From: a virus
Length of the DNA: 38,794 nucleotides
Reading direction: 5' to 3' (one strand)
Virus record (IMG/VR): IMGVR_UViG_3300032213_001192
Span: 1-38,794 of that record
Shown here: piece by piece, positions 1 through 38,794 of the stretch
Layout of the letters: the number at the start of each line of letters is the position of its first letter
Position numbering within the stretch: position 1 is the first letter of the stretch
Program-made: the position numbers and the translations under genes
Notes under the pieces: generated by a model
Database searches by the model: none
The model's input: the letters and a program-made list of their open reading frames with translations, nothing else
Told to the model about the DNA's origin: nothing

Positions 1-123
1 ACCTAGACCCACTCACAGTCAGCGACGGCCCACTGCGGTGGACACCCGCTCGTGAACGGGAGCCCGGCGTCGGGGTGACCCCCAACCCTTTCCCCTAGGA
101 GCCCAGCAATGGCAGCCCCCGAT
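1..123. repeat. Direct terminal repeat, left copy (contig closure overlap)
   Basis: Bases 1-123 are identical to bases 38672-38794. The repeat contains the capsid Shine-Dalgarno and the first five capsid codons. A physical T7-type terminal repeat would be expected near the early genes, not across the capsid start, so an assembler k-mer overlap of a circular or permuted genome is the simplest reading. Confidence 0.95.
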
Positions 124-4878: not shown

Positions 4879-5661
4879 ATGTGCGAGCCGGTCTCCATCG
4901 TGATGGGCATTGTCAGTGCCGGCCTTGGCATCGGTCAGGCGGTGGCTGGTGCTCAGGCGGCTCAGCAGCAGGTCAGTTTTGCCAACGCCCAGGCCCAGCA
5001 AGGCTTCGCGTTCCAGCAGATGCAGGCCAGCTCTGCCCGGAACTTTGAGCAGATGAAGGCCAACCAGCAGGAAGAGATGATGCGGATGAACCGCATGATG
5101 GCCGACAACTCATACAGCGATGAGATTGCACAGCTCAACCTCAGGTTGATGCAAGAGCAGGCTGCAACCAGCCAGCAACAGCAGCAGAACGCAACAGCAG
5201 GAGCCAAGGCCCGGGGCGAGGTGCTGGCATCTGGCCGCCTTGGCAACACAGTGGACAACCTGATGGCTGACTTCTACCGACAGCAGGCCCAGTTCGATTA
5301 CTACAGCAGCCAGAACCTGGCGTTCACCGGCCAGCAGATCCAGATGGAGAAGCGTGGGTCCGCTGCCCAACGTGGATCCCGGATCGCCAGCCAGCAGGCG
5401 TACATCAAGCAACCGGTACTGGATCCACTGGAGCCCATTTACCAGTCGAAGCCCAGCATGTTGCCGTTCATCTTGCAGGGCGCAGGTGCCGTCGTCAGTG
5501 GTGTCAGCACTGGCTTGAGCACTAAGGCGTCCATGGACAAAATCAAGACCGGCAAGCCACCTCCGGTTCCACCGCCTGGTGGCGGCACTGGCGGAAATTA
5601 TTCCGGTGGCGTTGCCGCCCCGAGCCTCCCGGGCAACCCATACACCTACAGGCGCTCTTAA
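4879..5661 (+). CDS. Internal virion protein B, T7 gp14-like
   Basis: The 260-residue protein has a hydrophobic N-terminus (IVMGIVSAGLGIGQAVAGAQ) followed by a long Gln/Ala/Met-rich helical region (about residues 30-170) and a Pro/Gly-rich C-terminus. T7 gp14 (196 residues) is ejected first and forms the outer-membrane pore; the hydrophobic start and the helical body are compatible with that. It lies three bases after the gp13-like stop, within a TAAGCCATG junction seen at two other gene starts. Confidence 0.85.
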   Translation: MCEPVSIVMGIVSAGLGIGQAVAGAQAAQQQVSFANAQAQQGFAFQQMQASSARNFEQMKANQQEEMMRMNRMMADNSYSDEIAQLNLRLMQEQAATSQQQQQNATAGAKARGEVLASGRLGNTVDNLMADFYRQQAQFDYYSSQNLAFTGQQIQMEKRGSAAQRGSRIASQQAYIKQPVLDPLEPIYQSKPSMLPFILQGAGAVVSGVSTGLSTKASMDKIKTGKPPPVPPPGGGTGGNYSGGVAAPSLPGNPYTYRRS

Positions 5662-8404: not shown

Positions 8405-11400
8405 ATGCCTTCCCAATTTGTTACCCGCCCCGACGGCACAGTCGAGCACGTGCGGACGGGAGGTAAGGCCATAGATCCGGCCAGCGTCCAGAAGACTGAC
8501 AACTCGCCACGCATGGTGCCTGGCGTCTTTGGGGACCTGCAAGCAGCAGGACTCTCTGGACTGGTGTCTGCTGGTCAGACACTGATGAAGACTGGCGACA
8601 TCGGCAAAGCGATCGGCGCTTATTACACGGGCGGCGCACAAGACATCAGCAAGAACGCATCACCGACGACCAGGCTGATTGTTGCTCCGGCCCGGAACCT
8701 GGCCCAAAGCGCACTCGGCAACATGCCGGCCGACGTCGTCAGCGAAAAGATGGGTCGCCCCCGCAAGGTTGGAGCCCCAGACGCCAAGTTGCTTGGTGTG
8801 GCACCAGCATTGCCAAAGATCCAATACCAGAACCCAACGGAAGAGTTGCTGGGTGGATTCGTCCAAGGAGCCATGGGCTTTTTCTTGGCGTCCAGGGGCC
8901 TAAAGGGAGCCAGCGGTGCAGCTATGCGTGTGCCTGCGGTTGCAGGTGCGGCCAAGGCGGTACAGCCGTTGACCCAAGCCGCCAAGGCCGTGGGCTCTTT
9001 TGCTAAAGGGGCACCTGGTGTCACCGGTGTCGCAGCAAGGACCGCGATTGGCGCCGGCTCCATCGTTGCCCAAGGTGCTGCGCCTGGCTTCATCGTCGAT
9101 TACGCGGGCTTTGACGCAGGCTCGACGCTGACGGATCAGGTCTTGACCTGGGTCGAGAAGCAGCGCGGCACGCCGATCCACGCCCCATTGCTCGACCTGG
9201 TGCGCTCTGCGCCTGGCGACACTGCTGCCGATGCACGGTGGAAGTCTGGCGTCGAAGGCATGTTCTTCGTTGGCCCAGCAGCAAGTGCAACCATCGAAGG
9301 CCTCGGCCGGGTGGCCAAGTCAATCATCAACTTGGCCAACGCTCGCCAAGCCAGCAGGGGTGCTGACCCCAACATCCCGCCTGAACCGCCGGCATCTGGG
9401 CAAACAGTCGACGTCACCGCTGCTCCCGTCGGTCCCAACGCCAAGGTCGCCACTGCGCCCAACGCTGGTCCTGGCGTCACCCAGGCCGCACCCAAGAGCA
9501 AGCCTTCTGCACCTGACGTCGCCAAGGCGTACATGGACATGCGGCCCCGGACGCCGCTGTGGGAGAAGCAAGGCGTTGAGACCCAGGGTCGTCTTGATGA
9601 CCCCCGGGCCGATGTGCAGGCCGCAACCAAGGACTTCGTCGAAGCAACGACGCTTGCCGACACTGCAGTGGCCCGGGCATCCAGCACGGTGCCCGATGAA
9701 GCTGGCCCGGTGGCAACGGTGGATCGCGGCAACGCCATGCCGAGCTATTCCCAGGTGCGGGAAACGCCTGTCGCTGAAATCGACACCGATCCCACCCGAC
9801 TGCAGTTCAAAGCCGCCGGCCAGGGCAAAGGCAAACGTGGCGTCTCCGGGTCCCTGAAGGACGCAAAGTCCTATGACCCGTTGTTCGGCAAGATCGTCAG
9901 CGTCTGGCGTGACCCAGAAACCGGGCGCCTACTGGTCGTCAATGGTCACAACCGCCTGGACCTGGCCCGTCGTTCTGGCGTCAAGAGCATCTTGACCTGG
10001 GAGATCGATGCCCCCAATGCCGACATGGCTCGGGCCATTGGCGCAATGGAAAACATTGCCGAAGGCCAGGGCACAGCCTGGGACGCCGCCAAGATCATGC
10101 GCGACATGGGCATCGACGGCGAGGAGATGGCCCGTCGCAACATCGACGTCACCAAAGGTGTGGCAGAAAAAGGTGTGGCCCTGTCCCGCCTGCCGCAAGA
10201 GATCTTTGAGCAAGGCGCCACCGGCAAGTTGAGCCTGGAGAAAGCTGTGGCCCTGGGCAGCGTGAAGCTCGACGACGTCGTGGTTCGGGACGTGGCAGCT
10301 GCTGCAGCGAAGGGCAACTGGTCGGCCGACAAGATCATGCAGGCCATGCAGGAGGCCAAGTTTGCCCAGACAGCTGAGGCCACCGGCGGTGGTGTGCTGC
10401 CCGGGTTCGAGTCGATGTTCAGGACCAGCAACTTCGAGCAGCTGCTGGACATCAGGACCGAGGCCTTCAAGGCCCTGCGGGAAGAGATGGTTGCGTTGAC
10501 GTCCGTGGCCCGGGAAGGTCGCCGCGGGATCCTCGAGGCTGCTGGCAATGTCGTCGACGTCGCCGGGTCACAAGCTGCAAGGGGCCAGGCGGCTATCGCT
10601 GTTGAGATCTTCGACCGGGTCACCGGGTACACCGGGCCAGTGCGGGACCTGCTGAATGAAATGGCGGGCCAGGTGAACGCCAAGCGCTCGGCCAAGGCCA
10701 TCGTCACCGAGAACCTTGAGCGGCTCCGGGCTGCGATTGAAGCGGAAGGTGGCAAGCCACGGCTGCCGCTTGAGCAACCACCGGCTCAAGCCGTGGCCCC
10801 GAGTGTCCCAAGTGCGGGAACTCCGCCACCTGCGGACGTAGGCCAAAGACTCCAGACCGCAAAGCTGTACCTCTCCGGCGATCCGGCCGAGGGAATTCAG
10901 GTCAACACCGAGGGAGGTCGGTCATTGTTCTTGGAGCACCCCTCCGCAGGGGCAAAGGGCTCCATTGGGGTGTCGGCCAAGCAAGAGGAGCAAGCAGCGC
11001 GCAGCGCCCTCGAGGCGGCCGGAGTCACGCCAGAGGAAGCCAAGGCTTACTGGACGTCCAAGGTCAATGCACTTGAGCCACCCGCGGCCCCACGCACAGC
11101 AGTCCAGCCCATGGGCAACGTGGCTGCTGCCGCCATTGAGCCACCTGCCGCTGCCGCCTTCACGGACCCCCTGTCGGCCGAGAACCTGGCGGACGCCCGC
11201 TTGACCCTGGGCCTGCCCGGCACCGCCAATCTCGAGGCCATCACCAAGGCAGCCCGGGAGCAGGGTTACGACGGCATCGAGTGGACCGGCACTGCCGGCA
11301 CCCCCGGCGGCAAAGGTGGTCGGATCGACCTGCGGTCCGACATGGAGTCGCGGAGCCAGCTGCCGCTGGGCGAACAACCCCTCGCCGGAATGCCGGCCAA

Positions 11401-14400
11401 GTGGCTCGTCCCCGAGGACGTGGCAAATGAGACCAAGGCCCTGGTCACTGACGTCGTCCGACGAGTTGTCGGCGATGACATTGCCCTCAGGTTCTACGAC
11501 AGCATTGTCATCAAGAAAGGGACCAAGGCCCACGGCACGGCAGACAAAAACGTAGAGATCGGCGGTTCCTACAACCCCTATGCCAACTCTGGCTTTGGCG
11601 GCCGTGGCGAAGTGTTCATGGACCCGATCGCAGAAGCGATCAGTTTCACCCGGATGCGGCTGAAGGTCACAGCAACCAAAAAACACTTCAAGGACTTGCT
11701 GAACTATCGGGCCGACAAGCTGGAGACCGCGTTCCATGAAGCCTTCCATGCCGTCCAGCAGCGGTACCTGACCTTGAAGGAAATCAATGTCATGAACTCC
11801 GGCATTGCCAAGGCCCGCCTTTGGTTCGCTGATTCAAATGCAGCCCGCAGGGGGCGCATCATCGAGCGAGCCAAGGAACTTGGCAAAAAGCCAGAGTTCC
11901 AAATGCCATCTGAGACCCAGGCCCAAGGCTTTGAGGTCTACGGCCCTGCCATGGAAGCTGGTGTCTCGCCCGCTGCCGCGTTGCTTGGGTTCCCCATCGA
12001 GGACCTGAAGGCTCTGTACTCCGTCAAGGGCCTGACTGGTTCCCGTTGGGCCGACGGCATCCTGAAGGGCGTTGTCGCCGCCACCAACGTCATCAACAAG
12101 TTGATCGACACCGTCGAGAAGATCGGCAACGCAGCCCAGTTCAGGGGCTGGACGTCGATCGAGGATCTCTATCGCAAGGCGTACACCGGCAAATTGCGGC
12201 TCAGGGGCAAGGCGTTCGGTATGCAGCCAGCATTTGGCCCGCTTGAGCGATACGACCCAGGCGTCGAACCGAGCCTGGCCCTCAAGACACCGGAGCAGCT
12301 TGACACCATGGCGGCCGAACAACTGATGCGCGGCATCGCGTTACTTGAGCAACGGGGTGAATACGACTTGGCCAAGAGCTGGCGCGACGCATTGGCGGCC
12401 GATCAGGCCAGCAACACAGAGGTTGGTCGCATCAACGGTGAGCAAGCATCGGAAGTGCCACCACCCCGGAAACCGGTGGAGCCTGGCCCCGGCCCCGAGA
12501 ACAGCGACGACTGGGTGCGTCGGTTCGCCCAGCAACTTGGGATGACCAAGGAGCAGCTGTTGAGCGGAGAGCTCACCTACGACGACCTGCTGGCCAACAG
12601 CTTCCAGAAGACCCAGAGCCCCTCCGGCCAAACGATCTACACCGCCACCAAGGAGAACCTGGTCGACGGTTACAACGCCATGTCACGGGTGCTGCCTGAT
12701 CGCGAAGGACTCTCTGGCATTCCGTCGTTCACCCGGGAGGAGGTCCGGGCCCTCAGCCAAGACTGGTTGTCGCGTCACGGCGAAGACGGCGAAGCAATCA
12801 TGCGGGGCTTGACCCCCTTGATCGCTGGCTTTGAGGAGTACCAGTTGGGTGCCTTGAACCGTGCCATGTGGCTGGCCGACAAGAAGCAGGTCGAGGCCTC
12901 GATGGAAGCTGCCATGTGGCTGAACTCGGCCAGCGTCGAGGGCCTGAACCAGTCCGAACGGCTGGCCAGGTTGATCACTGCGGCCGAGTCGGCTCGGGCC
13001 ACCCATGAGGCCGTGATGCGTGTCACCAGGCCCTGGGGTCAGCTGGGCGTCGAGATGCAGGTGCCCCGCAACTACGACGCACCACCAGCCACACAGGTCG
13101 CTGAGGAGGCTGCTGCTGTGCCTGCTGCCGAGACCATCGACATCGAGGAAGCCATCACCAAGGAGCTCGAGATTGAAGGGGCCCGCCCGATCGAGGAGAC
13201 CATCACCGGCAAGATCGACGAAGAACTGGTGGACGCTGCCAACGGTGGCGAGATCACGCCTAAGGCTCAGGCCGCGGCCGACGCATTGGCCCAGGCCCTG
13301 GTCAGCGCCGGCGCCGAGCCCGCCATGCGCAACAGGTGGTGGCGTCGTTTTGATGATCCGGCCCTGCAAAACATGGGCCCCAACGGGTTGCTGATGCTGC
13401 GGGTCAACAACCTGATCAGCAGTGGCGTCACTGCAACCACCAACCTGGGCAACGGGTTGCTGAACCTGGCCCGGTTCCCACTGCAACAAGCAGGTGGCGC
13501 CTTGGCCCAGGGCGAGATGAAGCGCGCCATGTACTCGATGATGATGTTCCAGCAGTATTGGATGAATCTGAGCAACGCCATGCGCGTCGCCGGTCACTCC
13601 TTGAAGGCTGGCCGGTCGCTGATGAACATGGACGTCAGCAGCCTCGACTGGTTGGACCGTGTCGCTCAACGTGACGCCCAAGGCGAATTGCTGTCCGGGC
13701 CAGATGCGCCGACGGGCTGGACCATCAACACGGTCAACATGAGCCAAGACATGGCCCAACGCCCCATCGGCCAAGCCATCAACAAGCTGTGGCAGATCGC
13801 CGGCACAGGTGCCAGCCGCCTGGCCATCGGCATTGACACCTTCAACTCCACGCTCGCTGGGTACGCCTACGAGCACGTGCGTCACCTGCCCCGGGGCATG
13901 GAGCTGGCGACGGAGCGTGGCATGAAGGAGTTCAGCTCAGAGGCTTGGAAGTTTGCGCAGCAATACGCAGATGCCAGGACCCAGGAAACGATGAAGTCAG
14001 CGGTGATCGATGGCAAGAACCTGGCCGACGTGGCCATGGAGAGCCCCCAAGCCCAGAACTTCATGAACGCCATCAACTTCACCGACAACGTGTGGGCTGA
14101 GCTTGAGACCAGAACCCTGTCGCAAGGTATCAGCATTGGCCAAACCAAGGGGCTAAGTGGCAACGAGTTGCAGGACTTTGCCCAGCGGTACGTCGAGGAA
14201 GGCCAGATGCAGCACCGCTTGGCCAACTTTGCCCTTAATCACCGGAACCTGGCCTTTGGTCGCATTGGTTCGCTGCCCGGCGAGGCAATGCAAACGCTTT
14301 CCAACGCTCGGGGGATTGGTCCGATCTTCAAGTTTCTTCAGCCGTTCCAGCGAGTGCCGTCGAACATCATCAAGTCCGCCATGCGCAACACGCCTGCCGC

Positions 14401-15691
14401 GATCTTCGTCGACACGTGGTGGCGGGACATCACCAGCGAGGACGCCTTTACCCGGGACCTGGCTGTGGGCGAGGTGGCGATTGGGTCCGCAGCACTGTCG
14501 CTCGTCGCCATGGCTTCGGGCCTTGGGTACATGAGGTTCAACGGTGGCGGCCCGATCGACCCTGCCGCCAAGGAGAAATGGACGACCATCGAGAAACGCA
14601 TGCCGTATTCGGTGCAGGTCTGGAACGACGCCGAGGGGGCCTGGTCTGTGCCGACCTCCATGCGGGCCCTTGAGCCATTTGCCACCCTCTTTGGGGCCAT
14701 CGGCGATTACACCGACATCGCCAACTCCCTGTCGACCGAGAGCCGCAACCGCTTGGGGTCAAGCCTGGTGTTGACCTTGGCCCAAATGTCGGCCATGGGG
14801 ATGCTTGGCAAGAGTTATTTCCAGGGCTTCAACGAGTTGTACCAAGCGGCCTTTGACCCGGGCCAAATCATTACCGGACCTTCGCAACGCAATCGGCTTT
14901 CTCGGCTTATGTCCAGGATCGTGGCCAGCATGGTGCCGTACAGCTCTGCTCTGCGGGCCGCACGACGTGAGACAGATCCCGTCAGCCGCACCGTGGACCC
15001 AAGCGACATTGGTGGCCTCATGGGCTTCTTCCAGGAGACCCTGGACGAGGTGCGCAACGCTGTGCCCGGGTGGTCGAACAACCTGCCGGCACGTCGTGAC
15101 TGGATCAACGGGGCCCCGATCCTGACCCAGGGCATCTTGGGTGCAGAGATCATCCCAGCTGACATGCCGTGGCTCCAGGCTGCCATGCAGTTCACCCCAT
15201 TCGCTGCGTTCCAGCAGGGCCGGGAGACCCTGGGCCCCGTCCACGAAGAGATGGGCCTGCTGTCTGGCAAGGGCACCAACTTCTCCGGGCCACGGGCCGC
15301 TGACTTCGGACCGGAGATGCGCTTGACCCCGAGCGAGCTCGAGGACTACGTCATGCGCTTTGCCACCGTCAAGGACGAGTACGGCCTGACATTCGAGCAG
15401 ACAGCCACCAAATTGATTGAATCGGCCCAGTACCAGTCCTGGCCTGTTGAAGGGCCATCAAGCCGCGACGTCAGTCTCCGTGCCGCTGCAATTCAGACCG
15501 AGATCCAACGGTTCAAGAAGTTGGCCAAGGAGGACTTCAAGGTCAGCACGGCCAAGGGCCAACTGATTGCCGCCGAAGAGGCTGCTGCTGAAGCCCGAAA
15601 GGCTGAAAAAACCTACATTCAACGGTACGGTATGGACAACAGTCCGCAGCCTGCGCAACTCGGCGCACCTTGGTCCCCAACCCCCCGCTAA
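8405..15691 (+). CDS. Giant internal virion protein D, gp16-position, polyvalent-type
   Basis: The 2,428-residue protein takes nearly one fifth of the genome (T7 gp16 has 1,318). Residues about 150-310 are Ala/Gly-rich and partly hydrophobic. Residues about 445-620 look ParB-like (LLVVNGHNRLDLARRSG at 509-525). Near 950-960 AREQGYDGIEW resembles a motif seen in ADP-ribosyltransferase-like parts of large polyvalent proteins (weak). HEAFH at 1111-1115 fits the HExxH zinc site of a metallopeptidase-like domain. The C-terminal third contains NNLISSGVTATTNLGNGLLN and, near 1975, FLQPFQRVPSNIIK, patterns common in giant ejected phage proteins. No transglycosylase was seen at the N-terminus. It is presumably packed in the capsid core and delivered with the DNA. 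The ATG lies in CGCTAAGCCATGCC, identical to the gp12 start. Confidence 0.85.
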   Translation: MPSQFVTRPDGTVEHVRTGGKAIDPASVQKTDNSPRMVPGVFGDLQAAGLSGLVSAGQTLMKTGDIGKAIGAYYTGGAQDISKNASPTTRLIVAPARNLAQSALGNMPADVVSEKMGRPRKVGAPDAKLLGVAPALPKIQYQNPTEELLGGFVQGAMGFFLASRGLKGASGAAMRVPAVAGAAKAVQPLTQAAKAVGSFAKGAPGVTGVAARTAIGAGSIVAQGAAPGFIVDYAGFDAGSTLTDQVLTWVEKQRGTPIHAPLLDLVRSAPGDTAADARWKSGVEGMFFVGPAASATIEGLGRVAKSIINLANARQASRGADPNIPPEPPASGQTVDVTAAPVGPNAKVATAPNAGPGVTQAAPKSKPSAPDVAKAYMDMRPRTPLWEKQGVETQGRLDDPRADVQAATKDFVEATTLADTAVARASSTVPDEAGPVATVDRGNAMPSYSQVRETPVAEIDTDPTRLQFKAAGQGKGKRGVSGSLKDAKSYDPLFGKIVSVWRDPETGRLLVVNGHNRLDLARRSGVKSILTWEIDAPNADMARAIGAMENIAEGQGTAWDAAKIMRDMGIDGEEMARRNIDVTKGVAEKGVALSRLPQEIFEQGATGKLSLEKAVALGSVKLDDVVVRDVAAAAAKGNWSADKIMQAMQEAKFAQTAEATGGGVLPGFESMFRTSNFEQLLDIRTEAFKALREEMVALTSVAREGRRGILEAAGNVVDVAGSQAARGQAAIAVEIFDRVTGYTGPVRDLLNEMAGQVNAKRSAKAIVTENLERLRAAIEAEGGKPRLPLEQPPAQAVAPSVPSAGTPPPADVGQRLQTAKLYLSGDPAEGIQVNTEGGRSLFLEHPSAGAKGSIGVSAKQEEQAARSALEAAGVTPEEAKAYWTSKVNALEPPAAPRTAVQPMGNVAAAAIEPPAAAAFTDPLSAENLADARLTLGLPGTANLEAITKAAREQGYDGIEWTGTAGTPGGKGGRIDLRSDMESRSQLPLGEQPLAGMPAKWLVPEDVANETKALVTDVVRRVVGDDIALRFYDSIVIKKGTKAHGTADKNVEIGGSYNPYANSGFGGRGEVFMDPIAEAISFTRMRLKVTATKKHFKDLLNYRADKLETAFHEAFHAVQQRYLTLKEINVMNSGIAKARLWFADSNAARRGRIIERAKELGKKPEFQMPSETQAQGFEVYGPAMEAGVSPAAALLGFPIEDLKALYSVKGLTGSRWADGILKGVVAATNVINKLIDTVEKIGNAAQFRGWTSIEDLYRKAYTGKLRLRGKAFGMQPAFGPLERYDPGVEPSLALKTPEQLDTMAAEQLMRGIALLEQRGEYDLAKSWRDALAADQASNTEVGRINGEQASEVPPPRKPVEPGPGPENSDDWVRRFAQQLGMTKEQLLSGELTYDDLLANSFQKTQSPSGQTIYTATKENLVDGYNAMSRVLPDREGLSGIPSFTREEVRALSQDWLSRHGEDGEAIMRGLTPLIAGFEEYQLGALNRAMWLADKKQVEASMEAAMWLNSASVEGLNQSERLARLITAAESARATHEAVMRVTRPWGQLGVEMQVPRNYDAPPATQVAEEAAAVPAAETIDIEEAITKELEIEGARPIEETITGKIDEELVDAANGGEITPKAQAAADALAQALVSAGAEPAMRNRWWRRFDDPALQNMGPNGLLMLRVNNLISSGVTATTNLGNGLLNLARFPLQQAGGALAQGEMKRAMYSMMMFQQYWMNLSNAMRVAGHSLKAGRSLMNMDVSSLDWLDRVAQRDAQGELLSGPDAPTGWTINTVNMSQDMAQRPIGQAINKLWQIAGTGASRLAIGIDTFNSTLAGYAYEHVRHLPRGMELATERGMKEFSSEAWKFAQQYADARTQETMKSAVIDGKNLADVAMESPQAQNFMNAINFTDNVWAELETRTLSQGISIGQTKGLSGNELQDFAQRYVEEGQMQHRLANFALNHRNLAFGRIGSLPGEAMQTLSNARGIGPIFKFLQPFQRVPSNIIKSAMRNTPAAIFVDTWWRDITSEDAFTRDLAVGEVAIGSAALSLVAMASGLGYMRFNGGGPIDPAAKEKWTTIEKRMPYSVQVWNDAEGAWSVPTSMRALEPFATLFGAIGDYTDIANSLSTESRNRLGSSLVLTLAQMSAMGMLGKSYFQGFNELYQAAFDPGQIITGPSQRNRLSRLMSRIVASMVPYSSALRAARRETDPVSRTVDPSDIGGLMGFFQETLDEVRNAVPGWSNNLPARRDWINGAPILTQGILGAEIIPADMPWLQAAMQFTPFAAFQQGRETLGPVHEEMGLLSGKGTNFSGPRAADFGPEMRLTPSELEDYVMRFATVKDEYGLTFEQTATKLIESAQYQSWPVEGPSSRDVSLRAAAIQTEIQRFKKLAKEDFKVSTAKGQLIAAEEAAAEARKAEKTYIQRYGMDNSPQPAQLGAPWSPTPR

Positions 15692-19359: not shown

Positions 19360-21090
19360 TTACGCTCTGCGCCGGATCCAGCCCGTGGTGGCCGGGGCCG
19401 CAGCAAGATCTGTAAGGCTCCCGCCCAAAAGGCTTCGGTCAAGAGCTCCTTCAAGGTCACCCATGTACGCCTGAAGCTCCAGGTCCCAGAGTTCCGATTG
19501 CCGTTCCCGGATGGCGCGGTCTTCATCGATGGCCAGCGATTCGTTCCAGTATTGAACCGCACCGGCAAGGGCGTCTAGACGGTCGTCGTGGGCCAAACAG
19601 CCACGGTCGACGGTGAGGTGGGTCAGCTGATGAAATAGCTGGTACGCCAGGCGCTTCTCGACGGCCTCGTCGTCCCGGGTCTTGGCGTCGCCCTCGATGA
19701 CCGACCGACTGACGATCAGCCGGTGTTGGTTCAGCACCGGCTCCAGGGCCGCGATGATGCGGCGCTCCTTCTGCACATTGGACCGGACGGTCTCGACGGT
19801 GCACGGATGCTGCACCTGCAGGTACGGCTTCAGGAGGCTCTCCAGCATGCCTTGGCCGAACTGGTCCTCCAGGAGGATCAAGTTGACCTTCTGGCGCTTT
19901 GCGGCCGCAGCTAGACCCTGGAGAACGAGCTCTGAGTACCCGTCCCGGAATGCACCGGACTCCAGCAAGAACAAATTGCCGTTGAGGTGGGCAACGATCG
20001 CGTAGGCCGTCTCATCCAGGCCCCGGCCAGAGGGGTCGATGAACATGACGCAGCCCTGGAACGGCAACCAGGTGCCGTGGATGTAAGCGGGCCGGTAGTA
20101 ATAATCGCCGCTGAACCCGACAGCAGGTAGGTCGCTGATCCGGTACTCGGCTCCAGAGCTCCACACGAGCTTCTCTGGGGCGTGATCCGACACCTCGAGG
20201 ACCATCAGGTCCGCCAGCTTCAACGGGAACCGCTGGGCGTCGCTGAGGCTTGTGTCGAGCTGGAACTGGAGCGCAAATGCCGACCGGCCGTACGACGTTT
20301 CCCTCTCCAACAGGTCCATTTCGCTGAAGCGACCGGGGTCCGTTGGTTGGTTGGTGAGCTCTGGACACCCATCCAGGATCACGGGGGCCAGGTGGTCGCC
20401 GTATTTGACGGGTTTTTCGGGGTACCGGGCCGGCCAGATGCGCACGTCGTAGGCGCGTTGGGCCAGCTTGTTGTAGATCGACTCCTCGGTCTGGGGCGTG
20501 CCCAGGAACATGATCTCGCCACCGGGCTTCAGGATGGCGTTGAACTCACCGACAGCGGCCAAAAGCTTCTCCCGGATACCGACGGACCACGACGTCGTCG
20601 GTGTCTCCACGTCATCGGACAGGATCAGGTCGGCTCTGGACCCGGTCAGCTGGCCAAAGATGCCGACTGCTTTGACGGATGGGCTCTGGTCCGGAATCGC
20701 GGGCCTGACGTCGAACCGGTTGACGGCTGAGCGCTGCTCCTCCCGGTCTGGCTCAAGTGCCTGCAGCAGCGGCATTTCTCGAATCAGCCGCATGCAAAAC
20801 ATGGTGAAGTCATCGGCCCGGGTCTTGGAGGCCGACACCACCATGATCTTGAGCTGTGGATCCCGACGCAGCAGCCACAACACATAGGCCGCGGCCATCC
20901 AGGACTTACCAACGCCTCGGAACGCCTCAACGATGCGGCGCTTGGAACCGTGTTGCATGTATCCAGCGATGTCGAGCTGGATGGGAGTTGGGTCCGGCAG
21001 GTTCAAATGGCGCCAGACCAGGACCAGAAAATACCGGAAATCAGAGGCCAGAGGTTCCGGCAACGCTTGCCAGCCTGTGGCTTGGGTCAT
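19360..21090 (-). CDS. Large terminase subunit (packaging ATPase/nuclease), T7 gp19-like
   Basis: The 576-residue packaging motor is about the length of T7 gp19 (586). Walker A is FRGVGKS at 57-63, and Walker B with the catalytic acid is LILSDDVE at 154-161. GTPQTEESIY (198-207) is the coupling region. The RNase H-like nuclease domain shows FIDPSGRGLDE (350-360), LLEDQFGQG (406-414) and HDDRLDALAGAVQYW (501-515), giving Asp/Glu metal ligands. It is encoded on the minus strand, unlike T7, where gene 19 is co-directional with the structural genes. There is a 60-base gap upstream containing a perfect inverted repeat. Confidence 0.95.
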   Translation of the reverse strand: MTQATGWQALPEPLASDFRYFLVLVWRHLNLPDPTPIQLDIAGYMQHGSKRRIVEAFRGVGKSWMAAAYVLWLLRRDPQLKIMVVSASKTRADDFTMFCMRLIREMPLLQALEPDREEQRSAVNRFDVRPAIPDQSPSVKAVGIFGQLTGSRADLILSDDVETPTTSWSVGIREKLLAAVGEFNAILKPGGEIMFLGTPQTEESIYNKLAQRAYDVRIWPARYPEKPVKYGDHLAPVILDGCPELTNQPTDPGRFSEMDLLERETSYGRSAFALQFQLDTSLSDAQRFPLKLADLMVLEVSDHAPEKLVWSSGAEYRISDLPAVGFSGDYYYRPAYIHGTWLPFQGCVMFIDPSGRGLDETAYAIVAHLNGNLFLLESGAFRDGYSELVLQGLAAAAKRQKVNLILLEDQFGQGMLESLLKPYLQVQHPCTVETVRSNVQKERRIIAALEPVLNQHRLIVSRSVIEGDAKTRDDEAVEKRLAYQLFHQLTHLTVDRGCLAHDDRLDALAGAVQYWNESLAIDEDRAIRERQSELWDLELQAYMGDLEGALDRSLLGGSLTDLAAAPATTGWIRRRA

Positions 21091-23798: not shown

Positions 23799-23842
23799 GG
23801 TGTGTCCAGGGTGTGTCCAGGGTGTGTCCAGGGTGTGTCCAG
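23799..23842. repeat. Four perfect 11-base tandem repeats (iteron-like)
   Basis: GGTGTGTCCAG is repeated four times without change at 23799-23809, 23810-23820, 23821-23831 and 23832-23842. Eleven bases is close to one helical turn. They lie immediately downstream of the AT-rich repeats and a GC-alternating run. Confidence 0.9.
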
Positions 23843-24030
23843 TTTCTGGCCAACCCAGTCATACCAAGGGGTTTGGGGTCCATGCGTATCTGCATGGATG
23901 ACAGGTGCGCAAGGGCTGGACTGGGCCTGGGAGGGGGCTTTGGGAATGATTCTCATTCTCGGCCTGGTCCCTTGGATTTCACAGCGCCCCCCAAACTTCA
24001 CCTCAACCCACACAACTGCTGGCCCGTGGC

Positions 24031-30776: not shown

Positions 30777-31408
30777 ACTTCCAGTACATCGACAAGCTGC
30801 GCCTGACCACCCCGAAGGCGACGTTCAAGTACCCGAAGCTGATCGAACCCGAGACCAAGTTCACCCCTGAGGGCCACTACAAAGTGACAGCTGTGATTCT
30901 TGCCGACGAGGCTGGCGCCATGGCTGACCAGCTTGACGCCTTGTTCGAGGCCCATAAAGCCAGCCTCAAGGCACAGGCCCCTGGCCAAAAGTTCAAGGCC
31001 ATCGACCCGAGCTTTGGGTACGAGGACATCGACGGCAAGCCTTGCTTCACCATCAGCGTGAAGATGAAGGCCAAGGGCATCGACCGTGACGGTCGCTCCT
31101 GGTCTGCAGTGCCTGCACTCTTTGATGCAAGCGGTGCACCGGTCAAGGATCGCGACGCCCTGCGTGGCATGTGGTCTGGCACCACCGGTCGTGTGTCGTT
31201 CGAGGCCTGCCCCTTCTACCAACCTGCCCTTGGTGCCGGCATCACGCTGCGCCTGAAGGCTGTGCAAATCCTCAACCTGGTGGAATCTGGTGGATCAGCC
31301 GATAGCTTCGGGTTTCAAGAGGAAGCCGGCTGGGCGGCCAGCGAGGCGCAGGCCAGCGTCCCGTTCGACGCAACGGGAGCGGCAACAGACGAAGGGTTTG
31401 ACTTCTAG
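30773..31408 (+). CDS. Single-stranded DNA-binding protein, T7 gp2.5-like
   Basis: The 211-residue OB-fold protein (T7: 232) reads LTTPKATFKYPKLIEPETKF, GYEDIDGKPCFTISVKMKAK and SFEACPFYQPALGAGITLRL, patterns of gp2.5-type SSBs in T7-like phages. The C-terminus is acidic and ends in Phe (AATDEGFDF), the tail that in T7 contacts DNA polymerase and helicase. ATG 30773 overlaps the RNA polymerase stop by four bases. The retained tail is noteworthy because no phage polymerase is visible. Confidence 0.92.
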   Translation: MNFQYIDKLRLTTPKATFKYPKLIEPETKFTPEGHYKVTAVILADEAGAMADQLDALFEAHKASLKAQAPGQKFKAIDPSFGYEDIDGKPCFTISVKMKAKGIDRDGRSWSAVPALFDASGAPVKDRDALRGMWSGTTGRVSFEACPFYQPALGAGITLRLKAVQILNLVESGGSADSFGFQEEAGWAASEAQASVPFDATGAATDEGFDF

Positions 31409-31781
31409 CCGGTACCGATCCAGGTTCGAGGCATCAGTAGCAGCCAGTCTCAAGGCCCGTGGCCTGCAGTTCGGGTACGAGGTGCAGGCTCTGAGCTACA
31501 CGATCTCCGCGGTCTACACCCCGGACTTTGTGTTGCCGAACGGGGTCATCGTTGAGACCAAGGGGCTGTTCGACTCAGAGGACAGGCGCAAGATGGTGGC
31601 CGTCAAGGCACAGCATCCAGGCCTGGACATCAGGCTCTGCTTCATGAAAGCAGACGTCAAGCTGAGCCGGGCACCCCGGTCCCTCACGTACTGGCAGTGG
31701 GCCGAAAGGCACGGGTTCCTCTGGTGCGAAGGCAACATCCCGACCGCATGGGCCAATGGCATCCAAGTTCCTGAAGCATGA
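31398..31781 (+). CDS. Endonuclease I (Holliday junction resolvase), T7 gp3-like
   Basis: The active-site layout of T7 endonuclease I is present: Glu11, then TPDF with Asp43, and VETKG with Glu53 and Lys55 (numbered from TTG 31398). The Asp-Glu-Lys spacing equals T7 D55/E65/K67. The enzyme cuts branched DNA before packaging. The start is uncertain: TTG 31398 gives 127 residues with an 11-base SSB overlap; ATG 31290 gives 163 residues but overlaps SSB by about 120 bases with an Arg-rich extension. The end overlaps the primase-helicase start. Confidence 0.9.
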   Translation: MTSSRYRSRFEASVAASLKARGLQFGYEVQALSYTISAVYTPDFVLPNGVIVETKGLFDSEDRRKMVAVKAQHPGLDIRLCFMKADVKLSRAPRSLTYWQWAERHGFLWCEGNIPTAWANGIQVPEA

Positions 31782-33369
31782 GGCTTGCCCTGAGTGCAAG
31801 TCGAAGAACAACCTGGCCCGCTACGACGACGGTCATGCGACCTGTTTCGGATGCGGGTACCAGGAGCAACCAAAGAAAACAGACAAACCCGAACCCCGCA
31901 TGGAGCCATTACCACCACCGGTCACCCCGACGCTTGAGTTTGTCGAGGCTCGGGCGCTCCCAAAACGAGCGATAACCGAGGAGACCTGCGCCCTGTTCGG
32001 CTACGGGTCCTCCACCAACAACGGTCGCCCCGTCCAGGTGGCGCCGTACCGGAATCAATCCGGCAAGGTGGTGGCTCAGCACCTGCGTGGTGCAGACAAG
32101 CGCTTCAGCTGGCTGGGTGACACCTCCAACCTGCAGCTCTGGGGCCAGCACCTCTGGCGCCAGAACTTTGGCAAGGAGACCAACCTCTTCGTCACCGTGA
32201 CAGAAGGGGAGATCGACGCCATGTCGGTGTCCCAGGTCCAAGGCAATAAGTACCCCGTGGTGTCGCTCCCTAACGGGGCCCAGTCCGCAAAAAAGTACGT
32301 GGCTGCCAATGCCACATGGCTCAGCCAATTCGCACGCATCGTGCTGTGCTTCGACAACGACGAGCCGGGCGTCAAAGCTGCTGCTGAATGCGTGGCTGTG
32401 TTGCCCTTGGGCAAGGTGGCCGTGTGCCAGTTGCCCCGCAAGGACGCCAACGAGATGCTGGTGGCAGGCGAAGGCGACGTCCTTCGTGAGTTGCTCTGGA
32501 AGGCCACGCCAACCAGGCCCGACGGGATCGTCAACGCCAGCGATCTCTGGGAAGAGCTGATCAAGCCTGGTGCTTCATCAGCCTGCCCGTACCCCTGGCC
32601 ACAACTGGATGCCATGACCCGTGGCTTCAGGCGTGGCGAGCTAGTGACCCTGTGTGCTGGCTCAGGTGTCGGCAAGTCCAGCGTGTGCCGGGAGTGGGCC
32701 CATCACTTCCTTCGTGCTGGCCTCCGCGTTGGATACATCGCCCTCGAGGAGAGCACGCAGCGCACCATGCAGGGGATTGTCGGCATCGAGCTGAACAAAC
32801 CCATCCATTTGAACCCCAATGCGTACGACGAGAGTGAAATCCGAGATGGCTTTGACCGTGTGTTTGGCACTGGTCGGTGCTTTCTTTATGACCACTTTGG
32901 ATCGATGGATCCAGACCACCTCATCGCCAAGATCAGGTACCTGGCCGACGCAGAGAACGTCGACGTCGTCATCCTTGACCACCTCTCCATCGTCATCTCA
33001 GGACTGACGGACCTGGATGAACGCCGGACCATCGACGTGACCTGCACCAAGCTGCGCCAACTCATTGCGCAGACCGGCGTTGGCGTGGTGCTGGTGTCCC
33101 ACCTCAAGCGACCGGAAGGCCGCGGCCACGAGGAGGGGGCACAGACCAGCCTTGGCCACCTGCGTGGCAGCCACGCAATCGCCCAGCTCAGCGACCTGGT
33201 CATTGGCGTTGAGCGCAATCAACAAGGCGACGTTGCCGAGCGCAATGAACTGCAGCTGCGGATCCTGAAGAGTCGGCACGTTGGCACAACAGGACCCTGC
33301 GACAAGCTGCTCTATGACCAGGACACCGGCCGCCTTGTCGTGCCGATGGCCCATTACTTCGGAACCTAA
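31756..33369 (+). CDS. Primase-helicase, T7 gp4-like
   Basis: The 537-residue protein (T7: 566) has all parts: zinc ribbon Cys11/Cys14/Cys30/Cys33; TOPRIM primase with TEGEIDA (Glu149) and CFDNDEPG (Asp199, Asp201); RecA-type helicase with Walker A GSGVGKSS (301-308) and VVILDHLS (Asp407); and the sensor region VVLVSHLKRPEGRG. It ends at LLYDQDTGRLVVPMAHYFGT. T7 gp4 continues with an acidic tail ending in Phe that binds DNA polymerase gp5; that tail is absent. It is followed after 12 bases by a zinc-ribbon gene where gene 5 would be expected. Confidence 0.94.
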   Translation: MASKFLKHEACPECKSKNNLARYDDGHATCFGCGYQEQPKKTDKPEPRMEPLPPPVTPTLEFVEARALPKRAITEETCALFGYGSSTNNGRPVQVAPYRNQSGKVVAQHLRGADKRFSWLGDTSNLQLWGQHLWRQNFGKETNLFVTVTEGEIDAMSVSQVQGNKYPVVSLPNGAQSAKKYVAANATWLSQFARIVLCFDNDEPGVKAAAECVAVLPLGKVAVCQLPRKDANEMLVAGEGDVLRELLWKATPTRPDGIVNASDLWEELIKPGASSACPYPWPQLDAMTRGFRRGELVTLCAGSGVGKSSVCREWAHHFLRAGLRVGYIALEESTQRTMQGIVGIELNKPIHLNPNAYDESEIRDGFDRVFGTGRCFLYDHFGSMDPDHLIAKIRYLADAENVDVVILDHLSIVISGLTDLDERRTIDVTCTKLRQLIAQTGVGVVLVSHLKRPEGRGHEEGAQTSLGHLRGSHAIAQLSDLVIGVERNQQGDVAERNELQLRILKSRHVGTTGPCDKLLYDQDTGRLVVPMAHYFGT

Positions 33370-33381
33370 ACATCAAACCAA

Positions 33382-33630
33382 ATGCACTGCCCCAACTGCG
33401 ATACATCTGTTGAACGCAGCACCTGCCGCATCATCCAGACCCGTAGCGACACCGTTGAATCCAAGCTTCGCCAACGTCAATGCAGGATCTGTGACCACAA
33501 GTGGTGGACCTGCGAAACGGACCTGCCACCAGGCGCCGTCAAGTGGAGGCTCAACGACGATGACGTCGATCCCAATTCATTCACTGTGCCCAGGCGCGTG
33601 CCTGGTTTCCTGCGCGTCACCTACTCATGA
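33382..33630 (+). CDS. Small zinc-ribbon protein (NrdR-like ribbon), 82 aa
   Basis: The protein opens MHCPNCDTSVERSTCRIIQT and continues with RQRQCRICDHKWWTCET, a two-pair Cys zinc ribbon like that of NrdR-type regulators and small phage transcription factors. The C-terminal part (VKWRLNDDDVDPNSFTVPRR) is not recognised. It lies between primase-helicase and exonuclease, exactly where T7-like genomes carry the DNA polymerase. It is coupled to the exonuclease by a four-base overlap (ATGA). A role in binding DNA or a host replication protein is conceivable but unproven. Confidence 0.75.
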   Translation: MHCPNCDTSVERSTCRIIQTRSDTVESKLRQRQCRICDHKWWTCETDLPPGAVKWRLNDDDVDPNSFTVPRRVPGFLRVTYS

Positions 33631-34385
33631 CTTTGCTGATCGACGCCGACTGGCTGCTGTATGCAGCGTGCTCTGCCTGTGAGTACGACATTCGATGGGA
33701 TGAATGGATCCACACCCTGCACCTCGAACAATCGGATGCCAAGAGTTACATGACCCATCAGGTGAACAGGTGGCAAGAGGCGACCGGCCACAAGGAAGTG
33801 GTGATGTGCCTGTCGTCGTACCCAACGTTCAGGCACCAGCTGTCCCCTGCGTACAAGGCCAACCGGATGGGCAAGCGCAAGCCCTTGGGCCTGCGGGACA
33901 TGAGGACCTGGCTCGAGTCCGAGTACGACGTCAGGTGTCACCAGAACCTGGAGGCCGATGACGTCATGGGGATCCTGATGACCAACGGGTCGTACCGGGA
34001 CCCGATCATGGTGACCGCCGACAAGGACATGCGCACCGTGCCCGGCAAGTTGCTGCGCATGGACAAGATGGAGATCAACGACGTCGGCGATGCCAACAGA
34101 AACTGGATGACCCAGGCCCTGGTCGGCGACACCAGTGACAATTACCCCGGGTTGAAAGGCTTTGGACCAGTGAAGGCTGAGAAGCTTTTGGCTGAGCACC
34201 ACACCCTGCCAGCCATGTGGAACGCAGTGGTCGAGGCATACCGCAAAGGTGGTGAGACCTTTGGTGCTGCGTTGCTCAATGCACGCATGGCCCGGATCCT
34301 GCGACACGGGGACTATGACTTCAGCTCAACTACGGTGGAACTGTGGGACCCAGATCGTGACCCCGCAATGAAGATCGATGGATGA
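33627..34385 (+). CDS. 5'-3' exonuclease, T7 gp6-like (FEN/PIN family)
   Basis: The 252-residue nuclease shows the metal-binding acids of the family: LLIDADW (Asp6, Asp8), LEADDVMG (Glu109, Asp111, Asp112), TADKDMR (Asp132, Asp134) and GDTSDN (Asp168, Asp171), followed by the helix-hairpin-helix PGLKGFGPVKAEKLL. FRHQLSPAYKANR supplies the conserved basic arch region. In T7 it removes primers and degrades host DNA. It is shorter than T7 gp6 (300). Its stop lies inside the next small gene. Confidence 0.92.
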   Translation: MTLLIDADWLLYAACSACEYDIRWDEWIHTLHLEQSDAKSYMTHQVNRWQEATGHKEVVMCLSSYPTFRHQLSPAYKANRMGKRKPLGLRDMRTWLESEYDVRCHQNLEADDVMGILMTNGSYRDPIMVTADKDMRTVPGKLLRMDKMEINDVGDANRNWMTQALVGDTSDNYPGLKGFGPVKAEKLLAEHHTLPAMWNAVVEAYRKGGETFGAALLNARMARILRHGDYDFSSTTVELWDPDRDPAMKIDG

Positions 34386-34896: not shown

Positions 34897-35312
34897 TGTG
34901 TAGCACAAGTGCTAATTACGCACGTGGTCGCGGAGCTGCTCCTCCGCCAGCTACCGAGGTTCGTGGCAAGGCGGTCGCCGCTGTTTCTGGATCACCAGTT
35001 ACTGAGATTCGTGGCAAGGCTGTTCGTTCACTTTCTGAACCAACTGTTGTTGCTGCTGCTGAACCAACTGCTGCTGCTGGCTCTGTTGCGCCGGAGTCAT
35101 CCTTGCCTTCGGAGCCGGTTTACCTCCCAAACCCTTACGGGCGCCGCGTCACGGTGACACAAGGGCCGTCGACTGATACACCAAACGCTGGTCGACAGGA
35201 CTCTGGCAAAGCAACCGATGAACTCCAAGTTCCTGCAGCCATGGCCAAGCGAAGCCGTGGTTCATATCGGACCACTGGTGTCAGCGGCCTCAGTATTCCC
35301 GGTGTTGCGTAA
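34893..35312 (+). CDS. Second virion accessory candidate with 16-residue repeats
   Basis: The 139-residue protein contains two tandem 16-residue units starting TEVRGKAV and TEIRGKAV (bases 34953-35000 and 35001-35048), an Ala/Pro/Val-rich linker and a C-terminus (AKRSRGSYRTTGVSGLSIPG) resembling that of the preceding gene (TLVIPGAGG). The two genes may be diverged paralogues. The start overlaps the previous TGA (ATGA; an ATG at 34896 is an alternative), and the stop shares a base with the portal ATG. A gp7.3-like tail role is plausible. Confidence 0.6.
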   Translation: MMCSTSANYARGRGAAPPPATEVRGKAVAAVSGSPVTEIRGKAVRSLSEPTVVAAAEPTAAAGSVAPESSLPSEPVYLPNPYGRRVTVTQGPSTDTPNAGRQDSGKATDELQVPAAMAKRSRGSYRTTGVSGLSIPGVA

Positions 35313-37075
35313 TGGAACTCAACTTGACCAGCAACGTTGACCGCCAAGCCAAGCCGTACGGGGAGGACGGCGGCACAGCTGCGGCCAGGTACGGCCAGCT
35401 GCAAACCAACCGTGACCCGTACCTGCAGCGGGCCCGGGACTGCAGCAAGGTCACGATCCCGGGGTTGATCCCTGATGCAGGGCAAGGGGACCGTGGTCGA
35501 CTGAAGACCCCGTACCAAAGCCTTGGGGCCCGGGGCGTGAACTATCTCGCCAGCAAGCTGCTGATCACGCTGTTCCCTCCGAACTCCAGTTTCTTCAAGC
35601 TTGAGATCGATGACTTGGCGCTCCGGGTTGCAGAGCAAGGGCCAGAGATCAAGACCGAACTCGACACCGCCTTGGTGCAGGTGGAGCGGGCCGGCATGTC
35701 TGCGTTCGAGGTGGCCAATGGCCGGGCCTCGATGCACGAAGCGTTCAAGCACCTGCTGGTGGGTGGCAACGTCCTGCTGTATGTGGCAGAAGACGGCATC
35801 AAGGTGATCCACCTCAACCGGTTCGTCGTGTGTCGTGACCCGATGGGGTCCGTCACCGAGATCGTGGTCGAGGAGGAGGTCTATCCCGACGCCCTGCCCA
35901 AGGGGCTGTACGACGACATCGACGAGGAGGACGGCGGATACGAGTCAGGCCGCAGCTCCAAGACGATCAAGCTTTACACCCACGTCGAGTACGAGGACGG
36001 CAAGGTCCATTGGTATCAAGAAGCCAAGGGCAAAGAGATCCCCGGGTCCCATGGCATGTGCGACCAAGACGTGAACCCCTGGATTCCTCTGCGCTTCAAC
36101 CGGGTGGACAGCGAGGAGTACGGGCGCTCATACATCGAGGAGTATTACGGGGACCTGCTGGCCCTCGAGAGCCTGTACCAGGCCATCATCGAAGGGGCTG
36201 CGGCCGCGGCCAAGGTTCTGTTCCTGGTCAACCCAAACGGCACGACCAGGCCACGCACCCTGGCCAACGCTGAAAACGGGGCCATCGTCCAAGGCAACGC
36301 TGCCGACGTCACGGTCATCCAGACCCAGAAGGCCCAGGATCTGAACATTGCCAACAGCACCATCGAGCGGATCGAGGCCCGGCTGCAGTTTGCGTTTCTC
36401 CTGAACACCGCCATCCAGCGACGAGGGGAGCGGGTCACCGCAGAGGAGATTCGTTACATGAGCCAGGAGCTGGAGGCTGGCATCGGTGGCCTGTACTCCA
36501 TCCTTACCCAGGAGCTCCAGCTGCCACTGGTGCGTCGGTTGCTGCACGTGCTGCGGAAACAACGCAAACTCTCGGCATTTCCTAAGGGCCAAGGTGGCGT
36601 GCCGTTGGTGAACCCAAGACCCGTGACTGGTCTGGAAGCGATCGGTCGTGGTGATGACCGGAACAAATTGATCCAGTTCATCACCACTGCCACCCAGACC
36701 CTGGGCCCTGAGGTGATTGCCAAGTTTGTGAATGTCGACGAGGCACTGCGTCGTCTGGCTGCAAGTGAATCGATCGACACAACAAACCTGGTCAAGTCTC
36801 AGGACCAGCTACAACAGGAGGCAGCTGCTGCTCAGTCCGAGCAACAGCAAGCCGCCCAACGTGAAATGCTGATGACTGGCCTCAAGTCACCAGCAATGGC
36901 ACAAGTGGCCAACAATTACACCCAAGAAGGAGCACCTTATGGCCCGCAGTTCCCAGAGGGGGTTGGACCTGGAGAACCAGGATCCCTCCCTAACGCCCTC
37001 CCAACCCCTCCAGACGGACCCGGTGTCGCTAGCGGGCCCTCCGGCCCAGGTGCAGCAATGGGGCCCAACGCCTGA
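35312..37075 (+). CDS. Portal (head-tail connector), T7 gp8-like
   Basis: The 587-residue dodecameric portal (T7: 536) has the family's landmarks: LKTPYQSLGARGVNYLASKL and ITLFPPNSSFFKLEID near the N-terminus, VCRDPMGSVTEIVVEEE in the middle, SIEEYYGD-type wing and stem helices (YGRSYIEEYYGDLLALESLY), and AEEIRYMSQELEAGIGGLYS late in the protein. The C-terminal 45 residues are Pro/Gly-rich and overlap another reading frame (36939-37172) that has its own strong ribosome site. The start shares one base with the previous stop (TAATG). Confidence 0.94.
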   Translation: MELNLTSNVDRQAKPYGEDGGTAAARYGQLQTNRDPYLQRARDCSKVTIPGLIPDAGQGDRGRLKTPYQSLGARGVNYLASKLLITLFPPNSSFFKLEIDDLALRVAEQGPEIKTELDTALVQVERAGMSAFEVANGRASMHEAFKHLLVGGNVLLYVAEDGIKVIHLNRFVVCRDPMGSVTEIVVEEEVYPDALPKGLYDDIDEEDGGYESGRSSKTIKLYTHVEYEDGKVHWYQEAKGKEIPGSHGMCDQDVNPWIPLRFNRVDSEEYGRSYIEEYYGDLLALESLYQAIIEGAAAAAKVLFLVNPNGTTRPRTLANAENGAIVQGNAADVTVIQTQKAQDLNIANSTIERIEARLQFAFLLNTAIQRRGERVTAEEIRYMSQELEAGIGGLYSILTQELQLPLVRRLLHVLRKQRKLSAFPKGQGGVPLVNPRPVTGLEAIGRGDDRNKLIQFITTATQTLGPEVIAKFVNVDEALRRLAASESIDTTNLVKSQDQLQQEAAAAQSEQQQAAQREMLMTGLKSPAMAQVANNYTQEGAPYGPQFPEGVGPGEPGSLPNALPTPPDGPGVASGPSGPGAAMGPNA

Positions 37076-38065: not shown

Positions 38066-38667
38066 GTGAAAGTCCTTGTTGCCTGTGAATACAGCGCCCG
38101 GGTGCGTGACGCCTTCAGGCTTTATGGCCACGACGCATGGAGCTGCGACCTGCTGGAGTGCGAAGGCGATCCACGCTGGCACATGCAGCGGCCGGTTGAG
38201 GAGGTGCTTGGCAATGGCTGGGACTTGATGGTGGCCCACCCACCCTGCACCCACCTAGCTACCAGTGGTAGCAGGCACTTTCATCGCAAGCAGCGCGAGC
38301 AAGCGGAGGCATTGGACTTCGTTCGGCTCCTGATGGATGCGCCGATCGACCGCTGGTGCATAGAGAACCCAGTCAGCGTCATCAGTTCAGCCATCACCCC
38401 CCCCAGCAGATCATCCAGCCGTGGCAATTCGGCCATGGCGAAGTCAAGGCCACATGCCTCTGGCTTAAGAACCTGCCCAAGCTGAAGCCGACGCAGGTCG
38501 TTGATGGCCGGGAAGCCAAGGTGCATTTGATGTCGCCAGGGCCAGATCGCTGGAAGAACCGAAGCCGCACGTACCAAGGGGTTGCTAATGCCATGGGTCA
38601 GCAATGGGGGAATGCTGTGTTGCCCGCTGTCGTCGATCAGCTGACCTTGCGCTCATTAGTACACTGA
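38066..38667 (+). pseudogene. C5 cytosine methyltransferase-like gene with a -1 frameshift at a C8 run
   Basis: The frame from GTG 38066 carries VLVACEYSARVRDAFRLYGH (motif I-like), AHPPCTHLATSG (motif IV PPC, residues 59-61) and WCIENPVS (motif VI ENP-like, 100-102), as in phage cytosine methyltransferases. At 38397-38404 there are eight Cs. The homologous continuation (IIQPWQFGHGEVKATCLWLK and RWKNRSRTYQGVANAMGQQW) is in the -1 frame to 38667. The 0 frame stops at 38485. One missing C, a sequencing error, real inactivation or -1 slippage at C CCC CCC would all explain it. An intact product would be about 200 residues. It lies between scaffold and capsid, unusual for T7-like phages. The only ribosome-site-like Gs are in the terminator stem. 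Confidence 0.75.
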
Positions 38668-38671
38668 GACT

Positions 38672-38794
38672 ACCTAGACCCACTCACAGTCAGCGACGGC
38701 CCACTGCGGTGGACACCCGCTCGTGAACGGGAGCCCGGCGTCGGGGTGACCCCCAACCCTTTCCCCTAGGAGCCCAGCAATGGCAGCCCCCGAT
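38672..38794. repeat. Direct terminal repeat, right copy
   Basis: Exact copy of bases 1-123. It joins the end of the methyltransferase region directly to the capsid gene, so the scaffold-to-capsid interval in the circular genome is about 0.77 kb (38019 to 38671, then 1 to 108). Confidence 0.95.

Follow-up and report, generated by a model that had tools for sequence, protein, structure and literature searches.

A closed, high-GC T7-like phage genome of the MPP-C lineage that lacks a recognizable DNA polymerase and the acidic tail of the primase-helicase

Which DNA polymerase copies a T7-like phage whose replication genes stand in T7 order but include no recognizable gene 5? This question arises from the window analyzed here, the whole 38,794-nt stretch of IMG/VR virus record IMGVR_UViG_3300032213_001192. 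It was also raised for the MPP-C cyanopodoviruses, a polymerase-less lineage described in 2022 (PMC9860041). The main content of the present observation was already published in that study, and what is new here is a high-GC member of the MPP-C lineage, whose phages are described as abundant. An earlier note on this DNA, made from the sequence alone, had cited as known that gene 5 is normally present in T7-like phages; this holds generally, the published MPP-C clade being the exception (PMC9860041).

A closed genome and a clade without a recognizable DNA polymerase

The two ends of the window share an exact 123-nt repeat (Table 1), and the window closes as a 38,671-bp circle. A truncated record was ruled out by this overlap, and no polymerase can therefore be hidden past the record ends. 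The single-subunit RNA polymerase and the T7 gene order fit a T7-like phage (Autographiviridae), and the window holds the whole genome of such a phage, a small one that belongs to a known polymerase-less lineage. The order RNA polymerase, single-stranded DNA-binding protein (SSB), endonuclease I, primase-helicase (gp4), and exonuclease, which the earlier note had read from the letters, agrees with the Pfam matches. The gp4 protein consists of Zn ribbon, Toprim, and RecA-type helicase domains, and its catalytic motifs are intact in the alignment. At the gene 5 position, between gp4 and the exonuclease, there is a gap of 257 nt (33370-33626) that holds only an 82-aa Cys-rich open reading frame (ORF). 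This ORF has 32 to 93% identity to its counterparts in some relatives, and many relatives lack it or carry other small ORFs. The portal gene downstream shows that no polymerase follows before the replication module ends.

Table 1. Positions of the main features in the window
Feature	Coordinates	Strand	Evidence
Terminal repeat, copy 1	1..123	.	Exact match to opposite end; closing overlap
Terminase large subunit	19360..21090	-	PF22530, phrog_38; 76% to P-SCSP1u
T7-type single-subunit RNA polymerase, 801 aa	28371..30776	+	PF00940 1.1e-77; aligned with 1aro
gp2.5-like ssDNA-binding protein, 211 aa	30773..31408	+	Weak PF10991/PF21265; 31% to P-SCSP1u gene 7; tail
gp3-like endonuclease I (Holliday junction resolvase)	31290..31781	+	PF05367 9.5e-35
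gp4-like primase-helicase, 537 aa	31756..33369	+	PF21268, PF13155, PF03796
82-aa Cys-rich ORF, zinc-ribbon-like	33382..33630	+	No significant family match
gp6-like 5′-3′ exonuclease, 252 aa	33627..34385	+	PF02739 1.3e-10, PF01367 4e-10
Portal protein (T7 gp8-like)	35312..37075	+	PF12236 5.8e-83; 66% to P-SCSP1u
Terminal repeat, copy 2	38672..38794	.	Second copy, end overlap

The six-frame profile search that the earlier note had proposed was carried out with a gp5 profile built from five proteins (T7, Pasto, CRP-125, HTVC025P, and S-CBP42) and run without filters at full sensitivity on all stop-to-stop pieces of at least 15 aa. There was no match in any piece of the window (best E 1.4), whereas every polymerase-bearing control phage was matched by the same profile with a best piece at E <1e-100, including P-RSP2 and P-SSP7, which are outside the profile. 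PF00476 and PF07733 gave no match in the window and their positive controls worked; PF03175 also gave none, but neither did its positive control. Likewise, no polymerase was revealed when Pfam was run on the large genes and on another 100 ORFs of either strand with lengths of about 100 aa and above. Thus, the claims that no frame on either strand shows polymerase motifs and that no unassigned gap is long enough for one were borne out. Such searches bear on known polymerase families, and an unknown family might escape them. A DNA polymerase of recognizable kind is absent from the closed genome.

Several other features of the window were observed. A DNA methyltransferase (phrog_757, 38066-38667) is split into overlapping frames at 38066-38485 and 38356-38667 that match successive stretches of the profile (15-140 and 137-223), which may reflect a frameshift, a sequencing error, or a programmed shift. 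The 2428-aa protein in the gp16 position (8405-15691) has, close to its end, a match to an internal virion protein family, and its residues 419-659 match portal-labeled and ParB-like families (phrog_21 and phrog_6218), possibly an extra enzymatic domain of this ejected protein. An 11-bp tandem repeat, GGTGTGTCCAG, is present in about 4 copies at 23799-23853, between the terS gene and the early region. Finally, the ORF at 26136-26669 matches phrog_474, annotated as phosphofructokinase, a name that is doubtful since a Pfam DUF6378 match probably belongs to the same ORF.

Searches with gp4 queries against IMG/VR and reference phages returned 174 polymerase-less sequences (window included), defined by an exonuclease adjoining gp4 and no polymerase, and 214 polymerase-bearing ones. 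The exonuclease gene followed gp4 after 0 to 923 nt (median, 3) in the former (n = 174) compared to 1826 to 4728 nt (median, 2667) in the latter. Comparison at this locus, another check that had been suggested, showed the gene-5-less junction type of the window in 173 other sequences of the clade and in isolates. Relocation of the polymerase to another part of the genome was considered and rejected, as the whole records of 22 polymerase-less phages had no match: PF00476 was found in 0 of 20 near-complete IMG/VR relatives and in neither of the cultured P-SCSP1u and P-SCSP2 genomes, compared to 9 of 9 polymerase-bearing contigs. The absence of a recognizable polymerase is clade-wide.

The placement of the window in MPP-C rests on a gp4 tree and on pairwise identities of other core genes. 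In the tree, calculated without the tail columns, the polymerase-less phages form one clade (support 100, 1 change) that contains the window, P-SCSP1u, and P-SCSP2, apart from the polymerase-bearing phages. The closest gp4 proteins in the phage collection were those of the MPP-C P-SCSP1 phages (58%). Identities of the window to P-SCSP1u were 76%, 70%, 66%, and 58% for terL, major capsid protein (MCP), portal, and gp4, respectively, compared to 46%, 32%, 43%, and 39% to P-SSP7. The MCP, tail tube A, nozzle, terL, terS, RNA polymerase, SSB, endonuclease I, gp4, portal, and scaffold were all nearer to P-SCSP1u than to P-SSP7 or P-RSP2; the exonuclease was slightly nearer to P-SCSP2, the tail fiber was about equal, and the protein in the gp15 position matched none.

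A difference from the MPP-C isolates is the GC content, 60% in the window compared to 34 to 39%. Across the polymerase-less set, GC ranged from about 34 to 64%, and the nearest relatives of the window (gp4 identity of at least 86%) had a median of 61%. The polymerase-less state therefore reaches from low-GC Prochlorococcus-like phages (34 to 42% GC) to a diverse branch at about 60% GC, which means that surveys using DNA polymerase as a marker miss those phages too. At 38.7 kb, the window is slightly above the MPP-C size of 37.3 to 37.9 kb. Pfam and PHROG scans of the window showed none of the auxiliary metabolic genes psbA, hli, talC, rnr, thyX, and MazG. MPP-C phages infect marine picocyanobacteria. 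The phage of the window probably infects picocyanobacteria, and its GC may point to a high-GC host. A search of bacterial genome contigs for the host gave only distant relatives (≤46% identity) in Alphaproteobacteria and others, and a DNA-level search gave no close GenBank relative.

The C-terminal tail of the primase-helicase

T7 gp4 carries acidic C-terminal tails that attach to basic patches on gp5; when 17 residues are removed, the processivity of the replisome falls to about 5 kb from the original 17 kb (PMC12593628). This acidic tail, which ends in Phe in T7, is missing from the gp4 of the window, whose last residues are TGRLVVPMAHYFGT. The same is true across the clade: an acidic Phe-bearing C terminus was found in 207 of 214 polymerase-bearing relatives compared to 0 of 174 polymerase-less ones, and in 48 of 49 compared to 0 of 15 after dereplication at 80% identity. 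Typical endings were NDTDF, DEDF, YDDF, STDF, and FDE in the polymerase-bearing phages and VVPMSHYFGT, MVAASDFFGEKL, and IVYENTFGDL in the polymerase-less ones. In the window's own branch, acidic residues are missing altogether from 60 of 70 tails, while 1 to 3 remain in the P-SCSP branches. The corresponding tail of SSB, on the other hand, is kept in both sets (156 of 170 polymerase-bearing and 133 of 135 polymerase-less), and the SSB of the window retains the C terminus TDEGFDF. The gp4 tail difference was not found described: searching the text of PMC9860041, on the MPP-C phages, gave no mention of it.

The loss of the gp4 tail supports the view that these phages have long operated without a T7-type polymerase. 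It may represent a natural counterpart of the T7 gp4 tail deletion, in which the docking tail disappeared together with gene 5 but SSB retained its own; gp4 would then act alongside a host polymerase, either uncoupled or held by another kind of contact. We put the odds of this reading at about even. It is also plausible, if on the doubtful side, that the polymerase is indeed absent but the tail was lost by lineage drift unrelated to the loss of the polymerase. Consistent with drift, other tails exist in some polymerase-bearing phages: in a more diverse sample of these, the strict gp4 motif was missing in 24 of 74, although most of the 24 were still acidic. Furthermore, the gp4 tree places both losses on one and the same branch, and a search of 78 more distant loci for independent polymerase losses that would replicate the correlation found none. 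The link is thus unreplicated in evolution and the coupling of the two losses is suggestive only. Drift is, however, harder to reconcile with a loss that is specific to gp4, with the contrast in the dereplicated set, and with the function of the tail in T7, which is to bind gp5 (PMC12593628). The only clamp-binding-like motif in gp4, QLRIL at residue 501, is within the helicase domain and is unconvincing. The tail difference offers a concrete, testable handle on the coupling of a T7-type helicase that has no docking tail to a foreign polymerase.

Candidates for the replicative polymerase

Taken together, the window is best read as a complete T7-like genome of the polymerase-less MPP-C lineage, its gp4 lacking the acidic Phe-bearing tail, in which a host polymerase would copy the forks opened by gp4 (probability of about 0.8). 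Transcription by the phage RNA polymerase would open the origin, where gp4 would then load, unwind, and prime. The primers would be extended by the host DNA polymerase and the single strands coated by the phage SSB, with gp6 removing primers and gp3 resolving junctions. As gp4 has no T7-type grip on gp5, its contact with the host enzyme must differ or be absent.

As for the host enzyme, the Pol III holoenzyme has, by analogy, a slightly better than even chance of copying the forks, and it is ranked somewhat above Pol I, which is possible but at well below even odds. Pol III is favored because phages without their own replicase mostly use it, as does the satellite phage P4, which combines its own primase-helicase with host Pol III. 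The latent period of MPP-C phages is 12 to 15 h compared to 6 to 8 h for MPP-B (PMC9860041). This is consistent with slower replication, though it may have other causes.

Three other explanations of the missing gene were weighed. First, the phage might encode a highly divergent DNA polymerase unseen by any profile, one of three options considered for MPP-C (PMC9860041). Novel polymerase families do exist, and the 897-aa and 2428-aa virion proteins of the window are largely unannotated. However, these two proteins occupy the gp15 and gp16 positions, the shorter has a glucosaminidase domain and the longer matches internal virion protein families, and their counterparts in P-SCSP1u and P-SCSP2 are poorly conserved, unlike what would be expected of an essential polymerase. 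The prior for a polymerase hidden among them is low. Because, in addition, the unassigned plus-strand ORFs of the early/replication region are all no longer than about 220 aa, a divergent polymerase is improbable. Second, the single-subunit RNA polymerase might double as a DNA polymerase. T7 RNA polymerase has family A polymerases among its relatives, and its selection is relaxed when the sugar-selecting Tyr is replaced by Phe. In the window, however, the catalytic Asp (LDCTCSGIQH), the Lys and sugar-selecting Tyr (AKPVVMTIPY), and the HD (HDCFAT) all align with T7 RNA polymerase (1aro), as expected of an ordinary RNA polymerase, and a double role is very unlikely. Third, loss of gene 5 in a sequenced deletion variant or in assembly, which the earlier note had entertained and which the gap lying exactly at the expected gene 5 site might suggest, can be dismissed, since the record forms a closed circle, a changed gp4 tail is seen throughout the clade, and the junction recurs in 173 other sequences from many samples, in independent metagenome assemblies as well as in the plaque-purified P-SCSP1 and P-SCSP2. 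With deletion rejected, use of a host polymerase, which the note had also put forward and which we infer here, is the best remaining reading.

Comparison with known phages

The closest known systems are the MPP-C phages P-SCSP1a-u and P-SCSP2 (OM416763-OM416780; PMC9860041), which have in common with the window the order RNA polymerase, SSB, endonuclease I, gp4, exonuclease, and portal. They are also alike in having no DNA polymerase, a size of 37 to 40 kb, no auxiliary metabolic genes seen, and a gp4 without the acidic Phe-ended tail, and P-SCSP1u shares with the window a terL on the minus strand. They differ in that gp4 and exonuclease abut in the P-SCSP genomes, with no counterpart of the intervening Cys-rich ORF, and in that the gp4 of the window is only 58% and 52% identical to those of P-SCSP1 and P-SCSP2, respectively, besides the difference in GC. 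P-SCSP2 is described as having no recognizable endonuclease (PMC9860041); at 5218-5620 it has an intact, unannotated endonuclease I ORF that overlaps the end of the SSB gene and is 42% identical to that of the window (E 6e-34). Another similar case is Jalkavirus, uncultured phage MedDCM-OCT-S08-C159 (GU943031), where the gp4 gene shares 4 nt with that of the exonuclease and, as in the window, no gene 5 is present, but this is a 10.3-kb fragment only and closer to P-SCSP2.

The MPP-A/MPP-B phages (S-CBP42 and P-SSP7) and P-RSP2 share the T7-like layout and have cyanobacterial hosts; unlike the window, S-CBP42, P-SSP7, and P-RSP2 encode a family A polymerase and a gp4 with an acidic Phe tail. 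P4 differs in its unrelated helicase and genome, and its alpha protein also binds the origin. Finally, the window shares with the T7 replisome a gp4-type primase-helicase, a gp2.5-type SSB, gp3, and gp6, and differs from it in being without gp5 and without the gp5-binding tail of gp4, while the acidic Phe tail of SSB is kept.
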